DNA from: Dysidea avara
Lineage: Eukaryota; Porifera; Demospongiae; Dictyoceratida; Dysideidae
Reading direction: 5' to 3'
DNA length: 64,000 bases
Assembly: GCF_963678975.1 (NCBI RefSeq)
Contig: NC_089274.1
Coordinates: 44,856,075-44,920,074 of the forward strand
Part shown: positions 30,448-54,288 of the stretch, piece by piece
Layout of the letters: each line of letters begins with the position of its first letter
Numbering within the stretch: position 1 is the stretch's first letter
Program-made: the position numbers and the translations under genes
The notes under the pieces: generated by a model
What the model saw: only the letters and a program-made list of their open reading frames with translations
What the model was told of the DNA's origin: nothing
The model's database searches: none

Positions 30448-32106
<1,659 letters not shown>

Positions 32107-38392: not shown

Positions 38393-41300
38393 TTATCTGG
38401 TGACGGAAGTGTCAGCTTCATTTGATGTTAATAAAATAGTAACAGCTTGGTGCATGACTGCTGGAGAGAGCAGCTCAAACTCATGTAAGCTCACAAGATG
38501 TTGGATAAAGTTTCTCTGCAGTTTTTTCTCCTTCAATTGCTGCTTGTAGTGACTGGCAAAATCGAGACATGCTCCAGGCACTTGCTGATCAGCCAATAAT
38601 CTGTGAATGTGTCGGTCAATTAATATCAACATTGGTTAACAGTACATTTCTTACTTTTTCTCTGTTATAAACAAATTCCATAGTTTCATTAGTTCTTTTT
38701 CGCCTTCATTGACATCAGTAAATTCATCAATCATCTGCAGAATGATTGTGGTAAGTCTCCCTAACTATATTACCTGTGCTATAATATAATGTTTTCATTG
38801 TCTTTGATGTATTATTAAACCAGCTAAGTTCATATCCTAAACATTATTTTGATATGCATTTCATATTCAAAAATATTTTTGGGGAAATCCCAGCATATTT
38901 ATGTGTAATGCGGCCGGGCTCAAATAACCACACGGTAACCATTTTATCTCACAGAACATTTGATAGTTAACAAGTATATTAAGGAGACAAACTCCATCGC
39001 TTCACTGTTTAGCAGTACTAATACCACCTTTATAATTAGTGTATGGTGACCACTGTGATTAGTAGCACACACCATAATGGAAACACTTAAAGACAAACAG
39101 ACACTAGGCTTGGTTAATAATCCAAAATCATTAATAGAAAAGTAATAATGATTTTCAAGACTTTACAAAACAAGTACAAGGGAATATCAAGCTCATAAAA
39201 ATAAACCAGAAAATGTTAATCTTACACACCCCACCCATCAATTACAGATAAGAGAGTGACCATTCCAATCCAGTCACTACAGAAAATACTGGTGATCTCC
39301 ATTATAAATGTGATAGTCAGTGAGGAGCCATCGACATGCTACAACACCTACAGGTAGTGGAGAAAGGATTGGGAGGATAAAGGTTGGAGCTGCTGTGGTA
39401 GGTGAAAAAAGCATATCTTAATATCAAACAGTGAAGAAATCAAGCCTGTAGTGTTGAAGTTATGCTTGGTTGAAGGCATCAGTAAGTTGTCTAGTTACCC
39501 AATCAGTAAAATTTCAGTTAAATTTTTTTTTAAATGTTGGAAGTGTTTGGGGTTGCTCTGAAGGCACAGTTGGGTGATATTTTTGAGCAGAAAAGCCCAA
39601 GCCTACTATCACAATACTTCTGTATAGTATGATAGCACGCTCACTACACACACACACACACGATAATAATATACGTACACTACACTTAGTAAACAAACCC
39701 TTGCGGTCCTTGCTGGCAGCCAAGAAGGGGTATCCTCAGCTTCACTGTCTTCTGCATCCAGTGCAGAGTAAGGAAACATGCTTGTTGTATGGCGATATGG
39801 TCGAGTGTGTAACACTGCGTCCTTAGTGCCCACCACACCTGAAGGCTGGGCCATGAACACGCTCAAGTTCTCAACATTAGGCACTCCAGCTCTGTAGAGA
39901 TACAGTGAAGTCTTATCAATATTAAGGCTTTATAAAGAGGTGGTCTTATTAACGAGGTCATGGAGTATACCTTAGGTACTTTACACGGTCACTGTAATGA
40001 GGTGGTCTTTATTAATGAGGTCATGAAGTACACCTTAGCTATTACACAAGGAAGATAGAGGAAGCTCTGTTAATTGGAATGTGCCAATCAGACAAATATT
40101 CATATTGTCTATGCTCCACAAAAGGAAGCAGGTAAATTACATTAACAAAAGGGAGATGTAATTTCAGGTGATTGCTTAATGCAAAGGGTAATCCACCACA
40201 AGAACGCGTGAGGTGTAAGGCAAAGGCTTTCTCACCGAAACAACATTAGTTCAGTCCTTGCTGGCTTCTTCTTGTAATATTTTCCAGAAGACACAGCTTG
40301 CAATCCTTCAGACAATGAGACACGCGGTACAACTGATGATGACTTCGTGATGTGAACGTCAATTAGTGAGCCATCCCTCAGAGGCTGTAGAAAGCAAAAA
40401 TAACAACAACCAATTATTGTACGTGTCTATCAAATGAGTATTTGCAAGGAGTACTTCACATGTGTGAGTTTAAAGTACAAAAAATATTTACTTTGTACTA
40501 GACATATTTACAGGTAAACTATTTGAAAGATAGAAGAAAATATGATTGCATCTATCAATCCTTGATGAAACATGATATTGGCTCTATATTCTGGTAAGGG
40601 ATACATTCATTCAGTATGGACTTATTGGCTGACAATGGTTGTAACTGGTAATAACATAAACAACATTATGTTACTATCATAGCAATTTGTCGGAGCAGCT
40701 TCAGTCTTTGATGACCAGGCAAACAGACTGTAAAATGGTAAGACACAAACCTATAGAAGTATTACAGTAAAACCTGTGCATTAAGGACACCTTGGGACCA
40801 ATCAAAGTGTCCTGATCATCAAGGTGTCCTGATTTCCAGGTCAGTTTACATGATCCACTACCAAGTGTCCAGATTATGCAGGTGTCTTTATTTTCAAGTG
40901 CCCTGATTAACAGGTTACCTTGTAAAAAGAAAGCATTTTAGTACTTTTGCATTTTTTGGTCTAAAGCAAGCCCAAACATTTTGCTTCACAAACATAACCC
41001 ACATGAATATAGAAAGTTTATTTGACCTGTTTTGATAATATTAGTACTACAAATTGGTCTTCAATTGTCACCTTCCCACCCATGTTGAAGGCAGTCAAAA
41101 CCTTCTGTGTATACACAACTAGTCATTTCAATAAGCAATCATGAGCAATTGATTTTTAAAAATATAACAATGAGGAGGCTGTGTGGACTATATTGTAGAT
41201 TGATCAGAGATGTAACCTTCATGTACAACTTGCTAAAAGAAGGTATAAGTTCCACTTTGACACTGTAGGAGGAAGTGATGTGAAACTTAATCAAAGGTTA

Positions 41301-43890: not shown

Positions 43891-46800
43891 TTGCACTACA
43901 CTTACAGTATAGACAGAAGTCACTCTAGGGTGGCACAAAGTGAGGTGGCACAGTAGACTATACAGACAACCACAATCCAGTGAACACCATGGACACTTCA
44001 TCCCGTATCTGGCCTCTGTCTGCAGGTGACTGTTGTCATGGTAATGAAAGTTGTACACAACTGGATGATGAGTGTTAGCATCACTGTTCTGTGCCGTGTT
44101 GAGGAAGGTGACTTGACCAGGAGTAGGGGGGAGCTTAGTCACAACGTCCTTCCCTGCCACGTAGTCTAAAGTGAGATAGCACATGAGTAGTGGCAGCATT
44201 ATTGCTACAGTAAATAATGTGTTGTCCCTTAGTAGCTGTTACACCATACAAGTTATTCTTGAAAATAAGTTTTAGGACATTAGGAAAACAAATGCCTGGT
44301 TTTATATATAGACTTAGGATATTAATGGGAGTCTTGTTTTTATGCTTTACTTTGCTGCCGCTATTTTTTCACACTTATCAACCGTATATAAATTTACAGC
44401 CATCTGAGGAATGAAAGTGCTACAATAATCACAGAACTAGTCCATGTGAGTTTGCCTTCATACAGATAACAACTGGTTATCAAGCCTTTACATGCTTGTT
44501 TATTGTAACAACACACTTTATAAGGTTTTCCATGCTTATCATTGAGATGATGGTGTTTTTACTATGATTCAAATCCAATTAAACTATGGATGTTGCTCTG
44601 ACTTATCCAAAATCAATCCCTGGTTTCAAATTCATTTAAAGACCAGGTAGAAAGAAAACATGTTACGCAGTGCTAGAAAGACTAAAAATTTGGGGGCGTC
44701 TGTATTTAGCGGATCACGGATCGGCGGATCACGGATCGGCGGATCACGTGATATGCATGCTCAACTCGATTTTGAGCACTGGGAAATATTTATACCCTAG
44801 TGTAACATACAGCATACTGTAGAATTTATATTTTATCCACAGGTAGGAAGCCTGAAGAGATTTCAATCGATACTATATAACTATAATAATTAGAGCGCGC
44901 GTGTATTAAAAATTTAACACACGTACAGAGTAAGATTATTTTAATTCACCTTAAAACTGAATCACTGATGTATTCTTTACACCAACACGATACTCAATAG
45001 ACTAGCTCTGTATTGCAAAAACAAACGACAAAGGATACACGCCAACATATTAGAAGCCTATTCACACGTGAGTGCGCTAGCGTATCCTTTGTCGTTTGTT
45101 TTTGCAATACAGAACTAGTCTATTGAATATTGTGTTGGTGTAAAGAATACATCAGTGATTCAGTTTTAAGGTGAATTAAAATAATCTTACTCTGTACGTG
45201 TGTTAAATTTTTAATACGCGCGCGCTCTAATTATTATAGTTATATAGTATCGATTGAAATCTCTTCAGGCTTCCTACCTGTGGATAAAATATAAATTCTA
45301 CAGTATGCTGTATGTTACACTAGGGTATAAAATTTCCCAGTGCTCAAAATCGAGTTGAGCATGCATATCACGTGATCCGCCGATCCGTGATCCGTTGATC
45401 CGTGATCCGCTAAATACAGACCCCCAAAATTTGGTCAGTCATTTTAGAAAGTTATGAATTTATTTTTTGTGGGCTATCAATGACTACTCAACTACAGGGA
45501 CTGTAATAACACAAGTTGTTTTGAATAGTGACACTCCAACATGTGTGTACTGTGTGAAATGTGATCACAGGTAGTTACAATGTGAGCAAGTGTACCATTA
45601 CGAGTGTTCAATCAACATATATGTAATAAATGAACATCATATGTAGAACAGATTGCTGGGACAAACGGAATGTGCAACTGTACCATTACATGTCACATAA
45701 CAACCATTAATTAAGTAAGGGAATCCCTGAAAATCACAGCTGCACTGTGTCTGACATATCAATAAACAGCCATAGAGTTACAGCAGCCATCCAAGTGTCA
45801 TCAATGTGCAGACAATTCACACCTTACACAATACATACAAACTTGTGAATCAGCTGACACACACACACACATGCTGAGGGGACTGTCCCATAAACATTAG
45901 TAGGACTACACAACATGTAATATGACATCACAGAAAAAACCCTCCCTTGTATTCCATAACTTGTGACTTCATTACAAAAACTTGATTGCCAGTTTTAACA
46001 AAAGGTGTGGGAGGCAGGAGGAGTGTACAACCTTATCATAGTGATGGTGTAGGGAGATTAAATACTATAGCAATACATCAAGGAATGTATCTGTACTTTA
46101 ATATAGCACACACTTCAGTCAAAGAGTTGTAATAATAATAATAGATATGCTACTGTTGCATGAACAAAATAAAGACAGAGCACTACACATTTTATTGCTA
46201 TCATTCCTGGTAATATATTTTTACCTGTTTTTTTGTTGTTTTTTTTAATTTCATGAGTTTACTTAAGGAATATGGTGCAGTATGGCACAAGGAATATTTC
46301 ATGGTAATATATGAAATGACATGCTTAGATAATGTAAGCTGTTACTCACTTTTGTTTAGTAATGAAAAAGAAAACAGCCATAAAGTGACAACTGGCTGTA
46401 GGCCCTTAACATATGTCTCCATCAATTCAACCCCAAACAACAACTATTTGCAAGATTGTAGCTTTGTTTATTTAGTGCTACAATTGTCTATGGACTATGT
46501 AGAAAACTCATCCAAATTGTATGAATTGTTATAGTACAAATGTCTTTCAGATGGTACAAAGTGTTAGAAAGTTGTGCATAACAAACTTTACTCTCTTTAC
46601 TGCAAGAGTACATAAATATATATATTATGAACTCTTGCTTACTGTAATTACAGTAGCAGCAGTGTTGCACAACAAAAATGACTTAACACAAACAAATGTA
46701 ATAGTAGAAGCCACATTCAGCTATGAATCATTAGAAAATTGAAAGCAAATGTTTAATACAACAATGACCAGACAGCTACATGATACGTACAACTATCTTG

Positions 46801-49800
46801 TACTAGTTGTATAGGACAGCAATGTGTATACAGTGGGATGGCAAAATAAAGTTGTTTTTCAAAACAGCAACATATTAATTACTACAGTAATGTATCAGCA
46901 GCAGTCACGTACTGGTGAAAATTATTCATACCATCTGAAGCTCTAGCCACAAACTGTTGATATCATGTTCATACATTAACATATCTTAAATAACTTTAGA
47001 GGTGCTTAAGTGGAACTGTAGCCACAAGGTTTCTCCTCTAGGTTATACAGTAATAGAAAGCACTTGGGGTGGCTGACTAATTTGTTAGTCATCAATCAGG
47101 TTAGAGAATGTCGTACTAAACAAAATTGTAGTTTGTCCAACAAGAGCTACATGACATGTTGGTCAGATATTTCGTGAAGCAGCAGCATCCCTTGAGAACA
47201 GGACTTATCAGCAAACAATGGTTTAAATAATAAGAGACAACTAGTGAAAGAAACATGGCGATCTGTGGTAGACTATACCCTTGGGTGAATACTCTATTAA
47301 GAAATTTTTATAAGTGACAAATAGACCATGGTAGCCCTACTGATAGACCATGGTAGCCCTACTGATAGACCATGGTAGCCCTACTGATAGACCATGGTAG
47401 CACTACTGATAGACTATGGTAGCCCTACTGAAGTTGTACTCATCCTTAACAGAAGGCATTAAGGCTGACATGATCCATACGGCAGCTCTTTAGTTGTATA
47501 GCAGTGTAAGCTGTTCACTGAAGTGGGGTGACTGGATGGAGAACTTTATTGCCCTACAGTTAAAAGGCTAAACCTTAACCTCCTAAAGTGTTTGTATAGC
47601 AGTGACTGAAACAACGATAGCCTACTATCAAGAGTTCATAATATAAAAAGATATCATGACTTCAAGATATGCGTTTGTACAGGCTATACTCCAAAATTCT
47701 GCATATAGAGCAGGAAGCTGATCAGTGAAATAGGTACAGTTGTAGGTTGCAGGGTAGTATAGGAAGCAGGAGTACATGTAGGTATTGTTTTGGTACATTA
47801 TAATATCAAGAGTTCATAATATAAAAATAGAGGAGAGTGTGTTAGGTAAAATCTAAGCATTAAACTTACTGCAATAGTATTTGCGTATAGCACTGAAACA
47901 ATGATAATGTGCTGAAACAATAAATTATGGTATCTGCGTGGTGTCAGTAATATCATTTTTCAGATGCACAGTGGTAGCTGCCCCAGTCATGCAAGTTGCT
48001 TATTTACTTTTCAGCAGTAACGAGGTAAATCTGAACAAAGGCTCATACAGTTTTGTACCTATATGCTTAAAGCATAGATGTAGATTTTCTGAAGTAAGTG
48101 TTACAGAAGCCTCTCTGTTCCATGCATTTTTTATGCTTAAACTCTACTCTAATTTAAATAAATAAAGGGTTCTACTCAAATACAACACTATGCACTGGAC
48201 AAACACACAGATGGAGACAATTTACCTGCCCTACCACAAAAGTGTTATAAGAGTTCCTATGATGTAAGGTAGTCTATGTGCCAGTGCTGAAAAACTGTGA
48301 ACATAAGAGCTTGTGGATTAAAATTTGAATAGAAAAGAGAAAACAAATGGTGCATCAAAAAGGTCTCAAAAGTGAAAAAAAAAAGTTATGACCTAGGCAG
48401 GGATCAAACTCAAGTTGGTTATTGGAGTTAATGGAGGTGTGCAAATCACCACAGTTGTTTGTCTGTGGTTTTGACAAGAATGTAGCTCAACTTTTCAGTG
48501 ATTCTTCCCTATACCAGTCAGTGCCTTCATTGCCCTATAAAGAACAAATAAAAGTACGTATTGACTTGCTACCACAATATTCGAGTTGTCAGATAACGGG
48601 CGTTTAATTTCGCTAAAATCCTGTGTCGATAGCACGTTGCATGCCAAAATACTATGAGCTAAAAGTTGAGTTTTAAAAGGTATGCACAAAATGGTACTGT
48701 TTGGAAAGAACAATATGTGGATTCAAACCCACAACCTAGTCAGGCGTTTGCAGCTAGTGCTGTGGTTTTCAAAGAAATATTGCTCAAGTTTTCTCTACAC
48801 CTAAGTAGCCTTCTACGTACGTGCTGTAGAGAACAAACGGAAGCACACATGACCCCGTGATAATAATCTTGAAAGATAAATGCTTTGTTTTGAGCACGAA
48901 ATGTGTTAATAGGCATAGGAACTGGCGAGTAAGTAGCATGACGGACGGACAGACGACTTTTCAGCTTTATATATATATATATATAGATACCAATGAAAAC
49001 ATTGCTTGTTCACATCACTGATGCTAAGCCAGTACATGAAGTGGGTACATGTATTGTGATATACATTGTTTTACTGTGGGATTTTAATTGTATATTTGAA
49101 CAAAAAATTAATTGGTCTGGCATGGTGAGATAGATTAAAGCAAGAGCTTAAGAAGGAGCATGAAACTGAGTTCCATGACAATCCAAATTACGTAACAGCA
49201 TTTGAAGTAAATTGCTTTACATCATGAGCAAATGGTTATGTAATTGACATGCGTGGTTCAACATGTAACAATGGACGCTCCAGCCATACTAATTAAAGTC
49301 AAGGTAGAGCCAAGTCACCATTGTTGAAGAAGAGAAGGACCTCAAGGAAGCCTCAGCCAACTTCACCATCACCGTGTGCCACTCACTGCCAGTCGTCTTC
49401 CTTGGCTTCTTTTATGACACCTTAGGATCCCTTCATTGTCTAACTGCACACGTTTTGGTACTGGTTAGCTCATTGTAAATCTCCTCGTACACTGTACAAA
49501 GCCATCTTGTAATGTTGTCATGCACAATTCTGTATACGGCTTCAAATAACGAGATTGTACTTTCCTTATATGGAAGCTAATTGGTGATTGATTTGGATTG
49601 TAATGGCACCCGGCAGGCAGTGTAAGTTTCACCGCCTTTGGCGGCTCATAAGCTCCTGATTAAAGTTATACCATAGATAAAGTTGATTTGTATATAAAAC
49701 AGTCACCCTAATGTATATTAACAGTTTAAAAATAGTTCCTCCAATATTTCTGTATCCACACAATCACATACACACTTAATATGTACATGCATACAAAAAA

Positions 49801-52800
49801 GTTTCTCACCTCTTTTAAGCTTTGACAGCTCCATCGCTGTACGTTGCTCATACTGTTGTCTGATCTTGGGAACACCATCACTCCAACTGAGTGAGAACTT
49901 GATGGAATAGTGTTTCTGGAATGGACCATCTGAAGCCTGCGTGTGTACATGTGAAGTGCTGTAAGTTATCTACACATATTAAAAGGCAGAATTAATCATT
50001 TCAGCTCCATTTATAGTCTACCTTGTACATTTCAATTGTGGGTTGTAAAACACACAATATCTGGTATTTAGTTAAATCAAGGAACGCAACTATAAAGTGA
50101 ATGGCTACAATAATATCTAATCTTTCTATAAAGTATTAGCCCATTGTATTCTATTGTATTTGTACACATAATGCTTCAGGGAAAGGAATATGACATCATG
50201 CACAGTTACCTGACCACTGCCTCCAAATATGGTATTCCAGGTAAGGGGACTCCCCGCAGCTGGTGAAGGTGTCTCACATTCTTGCAGCACCAACTCATAT
50301 TGGCCATCTTGTAGTAGACATTTGTTCCTTGAGTCAAACACTACTAGCTCTGCTGAGCACACTCCTTTTAGCATCGCTGGCACTTCTGCTCCTTCCATCA
50401 AACGTGGACGCTTTGCAGATGGCGGCTCAACTCCATTATTAGCTGTTTTGGCATAGTTGTGGTCTACTAAATTCCTTTTAACATTATCAAATGAATCATC
50501 TACAATTTCTACTGAATTATCAGTGTCATCCATTGACATAGGGCTGCCTATGGAAGAGTCTTCATCATTCATGGAGCAGCCATTGTTTGTGAACTGTTCA
50601 CTCTCTGCCAAGAGCAGTGCCAAGGCAGTACGACGGGGCTTTCTTCTCTTGTGTTTCTTTGCCAGTTTTACTGGCTTGTTGTTAAATGCTTTATAATGTT
50701 CCATAATTTTGTGGGACTTCTTGACAGAGTTCTTAACATGCACACTGGCGACCGAGGTGGGTATTTGGCACCCGTTCACCATAGACCTGTGGTTATCATA
50801 AACAATCATTCCATTATTTGATTTCTTCACAATACCTCCCGGGACAATGCTGCCATGGGCAACATGCCCCAGATTATTATGCATAACACTACTAGGTTTT
50901 GAAACTGTTTCTTTTTTGCCGGTGCCAATACCATTGCAGCCATTAAACTCATGTGAAGATGGCAACATAGTCTTACTATCACTTTTGTGCTGATTAGAGG
51001 TAGCAGTTGACTCTAATCCGTTTGGCTTTGATAAAACAGGATCTGTAGTGTCACTGCCTTTAGACACCTGTGCTATTGGTCCCAGTGGGCGACACTTAAA
51101 CACAAGCATATGTGTCCCGGACACCCCCGGGCTTTTCTTCCATGTCAGCTCACTAGCCGGGATGGATATCTTGCTGTGATCATGTGATCCTTGAGCATCA
51201 TCATGTGATCCAGATGGCATCGTGGAGACCACACACTTGCCCAAACTCTTTGTGTTATAAATAGGTAATAAAGTATTCAGTGGCTATAAACAGAAAATGA
51301 AAAGCAGGTACTTCATGTGTACATGTATTTATAGTTAAATTAATTGCAGGCATCTACCGTTACAGTTGACAAGAATGCTGGCACATTTTTTTTAATGGGT
51401 ATACAAATATTGTAGAAAATTAGGTAGCAAAAATGAGAGGGCAGTAATGCAATTGTACTATACCATAAACTACTACAATATGCACAACGCCTTTAAGTGT
51501 GTTATGATTGTTATCTGACTAAATACAGGAACTTATGGCTAGCTGCAGAACAGCAAAAAGAAACTAACAACTAAAAAGAGGCATGAATGGCACTGCTTTT
51601 CCTTAAGCAAAGCATATGTGGCAAGATTTGTATACTCCAAAGATAAGCAAATTTAAAGTAGAAGTGTGTGATAACAAATTTAAACATATCTTTTAATATT
51701 TCCTTTTGAACTTATCTCTGATTATCTAATATATCTAGATAATTGAAACAAATAAGTATTTAAAGCTAACTGTCACAATGTAACCAGTAAAGTGGGAAAA
51801 TTATAATTGAAGAAGTAAACAAGTTGAGGTTATGATACTTCTAAAAACCAGGTGCCCATGCAGTTAATACACATTCTAACTAAATAGGCAATTAATTAAC
51901 CATGTATATAATTAAAGCTATTAGTTAGATAATTAGATTTGTAAATACTGTAAGATTCAGTATATTTTGTAATTCATGAATTATTTTGCAATTTGATAAT
52001 TACGTTGCTATGTACTGCTAAAGAAGTGTAACTATAACAAACCACTTTTAACTGAATTACATACAGAAATATCTTCTCAACTGTTCTGTAGTGTGTCTAT
52101 CATGTTTTCTCATGCAAATTGTATAGAGAAAGCCTTGAGGCTGCCCTTCATTTTTGTTCACAAGTATGGGTAACGCCCCCCTTTCAACTCGAAGGATACA
52201 TTATATCTGGTAGCCTAAAAGGCCTTCAATGTTGTTAAACGTCTATAAAACTGATAGGGAAGACCATTCACAAAGTATATGAAGAGCTGGCATACCCATA
52301 TTTCAGACTGCCAAGAAGAAACCACCTCAGAGCAGAGTTTATGTGTGTGGAAGTTAATACAGACTTAATTTAGCTTTCAATTCTTACATCCTGGCTGCTT
52401 TTTACCATTATTAACTAGAGTTGCACCGATAAGAAAAAAAGCCAATGTTCCGATAACTGATATATCGGCTATTTAAATACCAATGCTGATGCCAATAACT
52501 GGTGTCAATAAATAATTTTAATTTATATTTTCTAAAATATTAACCATTGGAATTAACATAGATATGCTTACTGAATCCTTAGAGATCATTTTAGTTATCT
52601 ATTTAATAGGTTCAAGAGCAGCAATTACTTTTCCAGTCAAATCAGTTTGATTTGGAGTAAGTATTGTTATGCTACCATACTCGGTAGCATAAGTTGCCAA
52701 TGCTATCTTCTGTCCGTAAACTGTTTGCAACACATATAAAGTGGAGTTGCACCAAGTTGGTTTGTCCTGTAGTAATTTGTGTTTTTGATATCTAGATAGT

Positions 52801-54288
52801 ATTTCTTGTATTTGATCTAACTTGTGGTAAGCAATAGTAGAGTGTTTAAAATGCTCAACAATGCTATGGCAGACTACAAGTAGATCAATAACAGCACGTG
52901 TTGTGAAAGTACACCATCGTTTACCACTAACTGTATTGCGTGTACAAAGCAACCCTGTGCTTCAATTCAAATTGACCCTCCTTCATAGCTCTCTGCATTT
53001 TGCTAGCACTATCTGCTACAACCAAATGTACTCTTTCTTTAGAAATTTTCCAGTTTTCATGGACTCTAAAGCTTGACATATTACCACTCCAGTGTCTATC
53101 TTTTGTGCATGGAGAACACGTTTAAATTCATTACCAATCCAGTGGGCATTAACGACTCATTTAAAAGACTGGTACTCCAGATATCAGTAGTCAGACCCAA
53201 AAACTCCACGTCTTTTAGCAACTCAAATAATATATTTTCCTTTATCTTAGGCAGTACATTATCAGTAAAATGCTTCCTGGTAGATATCTTGAACTTAGGC
53301 TCAGTGGTATGTAAAAGATGAGTGAATCCTACATCAGAAACAACTGACAATGGCTAGAGCCATCATCTCAGCAATCTTGATATGGATACGCTCTGCTTTG
53401 GGATCATCTATATCCCACAGCTTTATGCGTGCCTGCATTTCAGCCAAAGTAGGTTGGTCCGTTGCTCTCCTTGTAGCTTCTTTACCTTTCAACTCTTACT
53501 TTCTTCTTTGCTCCGTAATCGCTGTACTCTATAGGGTGTTTCTTTTGTAGATGGTCTTCCGTGTTTGTTGTATAAAAGTTCTTGGACATCTTGCCACCCC
53601 CCTGGAAATTCAGTCGCCACACATCTCAAAACGAGCAAAGCGTTCGTTACTATCCAAAGCTATAAAATAATCCCTCGAAGCATATTAACACTTCAACTAC
53701 TTCCACACCTTAAGATAATAAACACCTTTACGCATGCACTTAAAATATCATCGGCTTACCTGATTATCATTTTACCGATAGCTGATATAACAGCCATATC
53801 GGTAAATACCAATAGCAATATCAGTATCGGTGCAACTCTATTTTAAACATTTTTGCTCACGTGGGCACGCACGGACAAACAAACATAGGTAGGTAGGTAC
53901 ACACACACACACACGTTTTTACTAAAGTAATTTCAGTAAACCAGGCGCACGCCCACAGCTGGCCAGAATGTGGGCACACGGCTGGTTTAAAAATAGTGGT
54001 TTTAGCATTGTGCCTAAGTGGTGGGAGAGTTGGAGGTGTCTACATCATCAGATATTCTTTGGTATACAAGTAATATACGAAAGTTTATCATTATCTAGAA
54101 AAAATGCACCAATCATCTTTATCTTGACAACTGTACATTCATTAGGGATCATACAACAAAAAAAGTAATACACAAGAGAGGTTGCCTACATCTGCAGATG
54201 GACATTAAATCCCTACTTCAGTCAATACCCAACCACAAAATAACTATAGGCACAGCAGAACACCTAATAGATCTTTAAACATACAGAT

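Follow-up and report, generated by a model that had tools for sequence, protein, structure and literature searches.

A near-perfect hairpin in a SUZ12 intron of the sponge Dysidea avara is very probably a non-autonomous foldback transposon of the Mutator-like superfamily

Introduction

Long inverted repeats carrying short tandem motifs have been met in several transposon systems. In the TU elements of sea urchins, the long inverted repeats consist of an outer domain, built of 15-bp tandem repeats, and an inner domain that is unique, and 8 bp of the target are duplicated; the foldback element Galileo has a P-type transposase; and the target duplications of Mutator-like elements (MULEs) typically measure 9 bp, within a range of 8–11 bp. 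The 732-bp hairpin described here resembles TU, by description and not by sequence, in its outer 15-bp tandem repeats, but its family duplicates 9–10 bp of target.

The element is close in kind to Tm1 of nematodes and, by the features tested, belongs with the foldback MULEs. As Tm1 has been described, the two have in common composite terminal repeats with short tandem motifs varying in number (mostly 14 bp in Tm1, 15 bp here), ends that differ from each other, target duplications of 9 bp, a rare long copy that encodes a MULE-type transposase, and short MITE-like derivatives. They also differ: the sponge frame has 824 codons with a Cys/His motif that we take to be SWIM-like and gives no FLYWCH match, and the sponge derivative, likened to Tm1 by description and not by sequence, is almost pure hairpin. 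Tm1 itself, a Mutator/Foldback family of root-knot nematodes, is reported to have a 496-aa transposase of the Phantom group with a FLYWCH domain, and motifs, most often of 14 bp, whose number varies from 1 to 9, inside single elements as well as from one element to the next (PMC3169594).

Two further systems bear comparison. The Drosophila foldback element Tetris, according to its description, likewise has inverted repeats with internal tandem repeats and no coding capacity, makes duplications of 8–10 bp and has a proposed Mutator kinship; its internal repeats are of ~220 bp, and its authors report having found no autonomous copy (PMC4079207), whereas transposase-bearing copies lie in the same genome as the sponge hairpin. 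Maize Mu killer is also described as inverted MULE sequence, terminal repeats included, at or beside a transcribed gene, but there part of the transposase gene is inverted, a hairpin RNA of ~4 kb is proposed and a silencing effect is reported (PMC3440606). The sponge element, in contrast, is a terminal-repeat hairpin present in many copies and known from DNA alone.

Results

We analysed a stretch of 64,000 nucleotides of the D. avara genome (the window). It had been proposed that a near-perfect hairpin with arms of about 345 bp lies there, and this holds: two inverted arms, at 44694–45038 (345 bp, plus strand) and 45082–45425 (344 bp, minus strand), align with 7 mismatches and 1 gap over 345 columns (97.7% identity) and enclose a 43-bp loop (45039–45081, plus strand). 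The whole element (44694–45425) begins 2 bp inside the start first proposed for it (44692) and is bounded on both sides by a perfect 9-bp target-site duplication, AAAATTTGG, at 44685–44693 and 45426–45434. Inverted repeats make up 689 of its 732 bp, as is expected of a foldback element. A second foldback feature, tandem sub-repeats of varying number within the inverted repeats, is likewise present. The outer part of the arms consists of 15-bp units (CGGATCACGGATCGG type) and occupies 39 nt in both window arms (44709–44747, plus strand, and 45372–45410, minus strand), but the number of units varies between copies. Outer-domain lengths are mostly 9, 24, 39 or 54 nt, in steps of 15, with occasional intermediates; 97 of 99 measurements fall between 9 and 54 nt (41 at 24 nt, 28 at 39 nt), and the longest values, 63 and 79, are misreadings that take in flank. 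Where a locus has exactly two measurements (41 loci), the two arms are unequal in this domain in 21 cases.

The hairpin lies, as had been suggested, in a SUZ12 intron; the gene is read from the minus strand, and Pfam and PDB matches to SUZ12 are found on both sides of the element. Downstream in gene direction, the ORF at 43891–44238(−) has matches to Zn_SUZ12 of Pfam (E 6.5e-17) and, among PDB chains, to SUZ12 (residues 427–476 of 6c23_A, E 6.9e-13), which places the zinc-finger coding segment at 43915–44064 (minus strand); a VEFS-box match follows at 38396–38635(−) (Pfam, E 2.9e-13). Upstream, the ORF at 50129–51283(−) aligns weakly to SUZ12 296–341 over the segment 50216–50356 (minus strand; E 0.015–0.027 in PDB chains, 0.027 for 6c23_A). 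The element sits between these matched pieces. Some 630 bp separate it from the aligned zinc-finger segment, which lies downstream of it in the gene, and one more small exon is conceivable in the interval from 44.2 to 50.2 kb. The ORF at 49721–49969(−), taken by eye for a SUZ12 exon, was set aside for want of a PDB match, and no Rfam family reached its gathering score in the window, so that a known structured RNA was likewise set aside.

The preliminary description had called for a search for other copies and their target duplications, and this search was productive. One arm gave at least 84 matches in the same genome (550.8 Mb, 108 contigs). A 19-base tip pattern, allowing at most 1 mismatch, hit the genome 93 times against 0 hits in a reversed control, and all 93 hits fall in 50 loci, each of which was fetched. 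Among the first 38 loci, 35 carry both tips; a perfect 9-bp duplication flanks 20 of these 35 and a perfect 10-bp duplication 8 others (28 of 35 together), while the remaining 7 have neither. Within nine bases of the element, the two flanks agree at 25–29 of the 35 loci at each position, against ~9–11 expected from mis-paired flanks, and agreement falls to background just outside. Ten further two-ended loci gave 7 perfect duplications of 9 or 10 bp, 2 with one mismatch and 1 (L050) with none. Not every locus is an independent insertion: L051 and L052 are one insertion carried along in a segmental duplication, being 99.4% alike beyond the element, as are L028 and L038, and L056 and L038 are the halves of one copy, counted separately among the 50. 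Because the copies elsewhere in the genome are embedded in different flanks and have target duplications of their own, we judge an artefact of assembly unlikely. For a special tie to SUZ12 or to chromatin silencing no evidence was seen: since the same ends recur at 50 loci, a SUZ12-specific function was rejected as the default reading.

Four long loci have the same tips and inverted ends (L047, 4458 bp; L048, 4479 bp; L049, 5546 bp; L058, 4333 bp). L048 contains an open frame of 824 codons; in L047 the matching region has two in-frame stops, and in L049 and L058 it is disrupted. All four copies share a stop just before the frame, whose start is therefore provisional and which an intron may precede. 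Scoring of 55 of 351 candidates gave the L048 protein at least 73 matches in the genome, many at 32–41% identity. All 12 members of an alignment share D164, D233, C254 and E375, and likewise C548, C552, C561 and H563; we take the invariant D/D/E residues to be the MULE D-D-E triad and the C548/C552/C561/H563 set to be a SWIM-like finger. L048 by itself matches Pfam MULE below the cut-off (E 1.7e-4, 22.4 bits against 27.6), but among the 12 members of the alignment 9 give a match at E≤0.01. Individual scans of six relatives put L071 above the cut-off (33.1 against 27.6 bits), with a match to Transposase_mut as well; four others match MULE below the cut-off and L067 has no match. Two features of MULEs are thus found together, namely target duplications of the 9-bp type (20 of 35 at 9 bp, 8 others at 10) and a D-D-E transposase encoded between the same ends, L048 itself being sub-threshold. 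An N-terminal FLYWCH zinc finger, a feature of the Phantom group, was sought in three reading frames of L048 without a match at E 1 or below, in a scan that could miss an upstream exon. When inverted ends were sought within ~1.5 kb of flank around five related transposase loci, one (L064) had a pair, of 59 bp. Relatives of the transposase core were also looked for in viral contigs, and none was confirmed there. L031 (4388 bp) was rejected as a coding parent; its interior holds a frame that by eye is reverse-transcriptase-like, and we read it as a nested insertion.

Comparison with both ends of the four long copies accounts for the shape of the hairpin. Positions 1–387 of the hairpin run along a terminal repeat and reach its inner end or stop just short of it; positions 389–732 are a second repeat, reversed and truncated further out. 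The hairpin is one nearly whole repeat plus one truncated repeat, and its loop is therefore the inner stretch of a parental repeat that survives on just one side and has nothing opposite to pair with. Compared with the L047/L048/L058 type, the first part of the hairpin spans the repeat completely; the repeat of the L049 type measures 407–409 bp, and relative to it ~35 inner bases are missing. The fusion point occurs within 4 edits in 37 of the 50 loci, which traces them to a single event. The other 13 loci are the four long coding copies, five that are interrupted, shortened, scrambled or halved (L031, L035, L044, L050, L056), and L045, L051, L052 and L053 (~0.8 kb), which have another junction in common and which, from their sequence, appear to be a second deletion derivative. 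The exact parent copy was not found among the four long loci, and the present mobiliser is for that reason putative. The L049 repeat is collinear with the hairpin at 95–96%, with no gaps or next to none, but the coding region of L049 has decayed; in its outer 290 bp the right end of L048 reaches 97.6% identity, with indels further in, and its left end differs more (85%). The window hairpin, for which we observe the foldback anatomy, the target duplications, the spread in many copies, the long copies with a transposase frame and the fusion point, is very probably a non-autonomous foldback transposon of the MULE superfamily.

It had also been suggested that RNA of the hairpin would form long dsRNA for Dicer or ADAR, which is physically plausible. 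RNA of the minus strand, the SUZ12 sense, has a predicted fold of −616 kcal/mol, far beyond chance (−167 ± 7 for 20 shuffles), with perfect duplex runs of up to 113 bp. One might then suppose that the intronic hairpin is a functional dsRNA source akin to Mu killer, read-through of SUZ12 yielding a hairpin RNA of MULE ends whose small RNAs would silence the transposase-bearing copies or, alternatively, an RNA subject to ADAR editing with possible feedback on SUZ12 splicing. Besides the very stable fold, the Dicer_dimer and A_deamin domains encoded in the genome speak for such a role, as do the 528 of 976 distinct hairpin 21-mers that are found exactly in L048, and there only within its two ends; but introns are usually removed and degraded, the hairpin holds terminal repeats only, without transposase coding sequence, and with dozens of other copies of the same hairpin the window copy is not special. 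We consider this role very unlikely, even with the precedent of Mu killer, which is described as an inverted MuDR duplication with proposed read-through from a flanking gene (PMC3440606). Slimmer still is the chance of an animal counterpart of Mu killer, in which a MULE-end hairpin in a Polycomb-gene intron would restrain transposase-bearing copies via small RNAs or edited dsRNA; if it were real, a chromatin-silencing gene and a transposon-silencing trigger would lie on one transcript. As a separate observation, six partial A_deamin (ADAR-type) matches lie within 220 kb at G000:C3:5278469-5498402, most of them in open frames of ~480–495 codons, and two full-length matches lie elsewhere; the C3 group is possibly an expanded deaminase family.

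Divergence and arm statistics were obtained from 30 of the 50 loci, oriented by the loop and of standard length (600–740 bp); among the first 38 loci, three one-tipped ones and five outside 600–740 bp were excluded, and the 12 fetched later were unused. These 30 copies differ from their consensus by 1.2% substitutions on average, and the window copy by 0.56%. A group that seemed ~4% diverged in an unoriented alignment consisted of reversed copies and vanished once all were oriented by the loop. The near-identity of the arms had been attributed to recent insertion or to arm-to-arm gene conversion. The first proposal is supported, as far as sequence can date the event, by the 9-bp target duplication and the near-identical copies elsewhere.

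The second proposal fares differently in the family and in the window copy. Over the 289-bp inner domain of the 30 copies, the distance between the arms of one copy is 0.0252 (gaps counted) against a mean of 0.0291 in 2000 permuted pairings (p=0.001). Non-consensus states common to both arms of a copy, deletions being counted base by base, are in excess at frequency ≤4 (10 observed, 1.4 expected, p=0.027) and ≤16 (19 against 4.9, p=0.0035); for changes seen nowhere else the figures are 2 against 0.7 (p=0.088). Two marker sites look homogenised in some copies: site 245 reads C/T in 16 copies, C/C in 5, T/T in 5 and A/T in 2, and site 258 reads C/T in 10, T/T in 15 and C/C in 3, each site being unread on one side in 2 copies. 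Some of the C/C or T/T states may be ancestral and not copied, because both ends of L049 read C at 245 and T at 258, and a shared change at site 154, in a CpG run, may be parallel mutation. L012, L024 and L039 (possibly one event), which are C/C at both markers, and L015, in which the inner domain is the same in both arms, two rare changes included, are best read as arm-to-arm copying. Conversion thus finds support in the family, but no mark of it is seen in the window copy, which is C/T at both markers and has no rare change common to its arms. That in-place conversion, and not the youth of the insertion, mainly keeps the arms alike is therefore a reading already weakened for this copy and, in our estimate, highly improbable: at 0.56% from the consensus, youth alone suffices, and the progenitor arms must already have been nearly identical, since between the consensus arms there is only 1 substitution, besides a gap of 8 bases within the sub-repeats and one of 2 bases at the end.

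Discussion

In the foldback-MULE reading, a parent MULE with terminal inverted repeats of ~350–410 bp would have lost its interior, presumably by deletion, so that a nearly whole repeat (~387 bp) came to join a second repeat truncated at ~344 bp and the 43 bp without a partner became the loop. As both tips (GGGCGTCTGTATTTAGCGGATCA) survive, the transposase of the longer copies would cut and paste the element in trans, with a duplication of 9, or sometimes 10, bp of target at each insertion. The SUZ12 intron would recently have received one such copy, and there the element is most likely spliced out with the intron and probably has little effect. Although the foldback shape is described as having arisen in more than one superfamily (PMC4079207, PMC3169594), it is hardly credible that a transposase of another superfamily moves the element and that the MULE copies merely have the same ends, given the 9–10 bp duplications, the MULE-type transposase between identical tips and the fact that none of the four long coding loci encodes a different transposase.

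The window hairpin is therefore a clear but ordinary recent insertion and not a special feature of SUZ12; a striking hairpin within a regulatory gene can be just that. What is of wider interest is that the origin of a foldback element is seen rather completely, with transposase copies, ends, fusion point and hairpin offspring in one genome, and that thirty young near-palindromes allow arm-to-arm copying to be measured directly. Our literature search covered elements of this kind and the RNA biology, and the family may already be catalogued.

Several copies have been altered since their formation. L014 carries two right ends in tandem, the hairpin copy being followed at its right end by 157 bp more that itself ends in a normal tip. 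L018, L021 and L031 are two-ended hairpins with inserted sequence in or beside the 43-bp loop; in L018 (1228 bp) and L021 (1154 bp) the loop region contains unrelated sequence, and the L018 insert has inverted ends, ACGGGTTGCC, with flanks that look like TA. No insertion preference for the loop can be claimed, because the insert of L056/L038 sits in an arm. There, a 58.5-kb stretch (G000:C7:29176885-29235343) splits one hairpin copy at consensus position ~449, its left edge lying at 686 in L056 and its right edge at 644 in L038. The ends of the stretch are inverted, CATATCC...GGATATG, and it seems to have duplicated 1 bp of its target. Its left end recurs at C2:43348805, C11:5834637 and C14:11353539, and its right end has 31 matches, 15 of which run to the very end. 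Paired ends of this type suggest lengths of 8.4 kb (C11) and ~53.6 kb (C14), both pairs being also consistent with a 1-bp duplication. Against a single giant element, the stretches compared have only a few hundred bases in common, near the left end, and the 8.4-kb copy is without any frame of 150 codons.

Elsewhere in the window, frames on the minus strand at 52599–53659 resemble by eye a decayed hAT/ZBED-type transposase, and a Pfam scan of three pieces from this interval gave no match. At 31252–31899, also on the minus strand, exons of a neighbouring gene encode PH and ArfGap domains; the product of this gene is perhaps an ACAP/centaurin-type protein.
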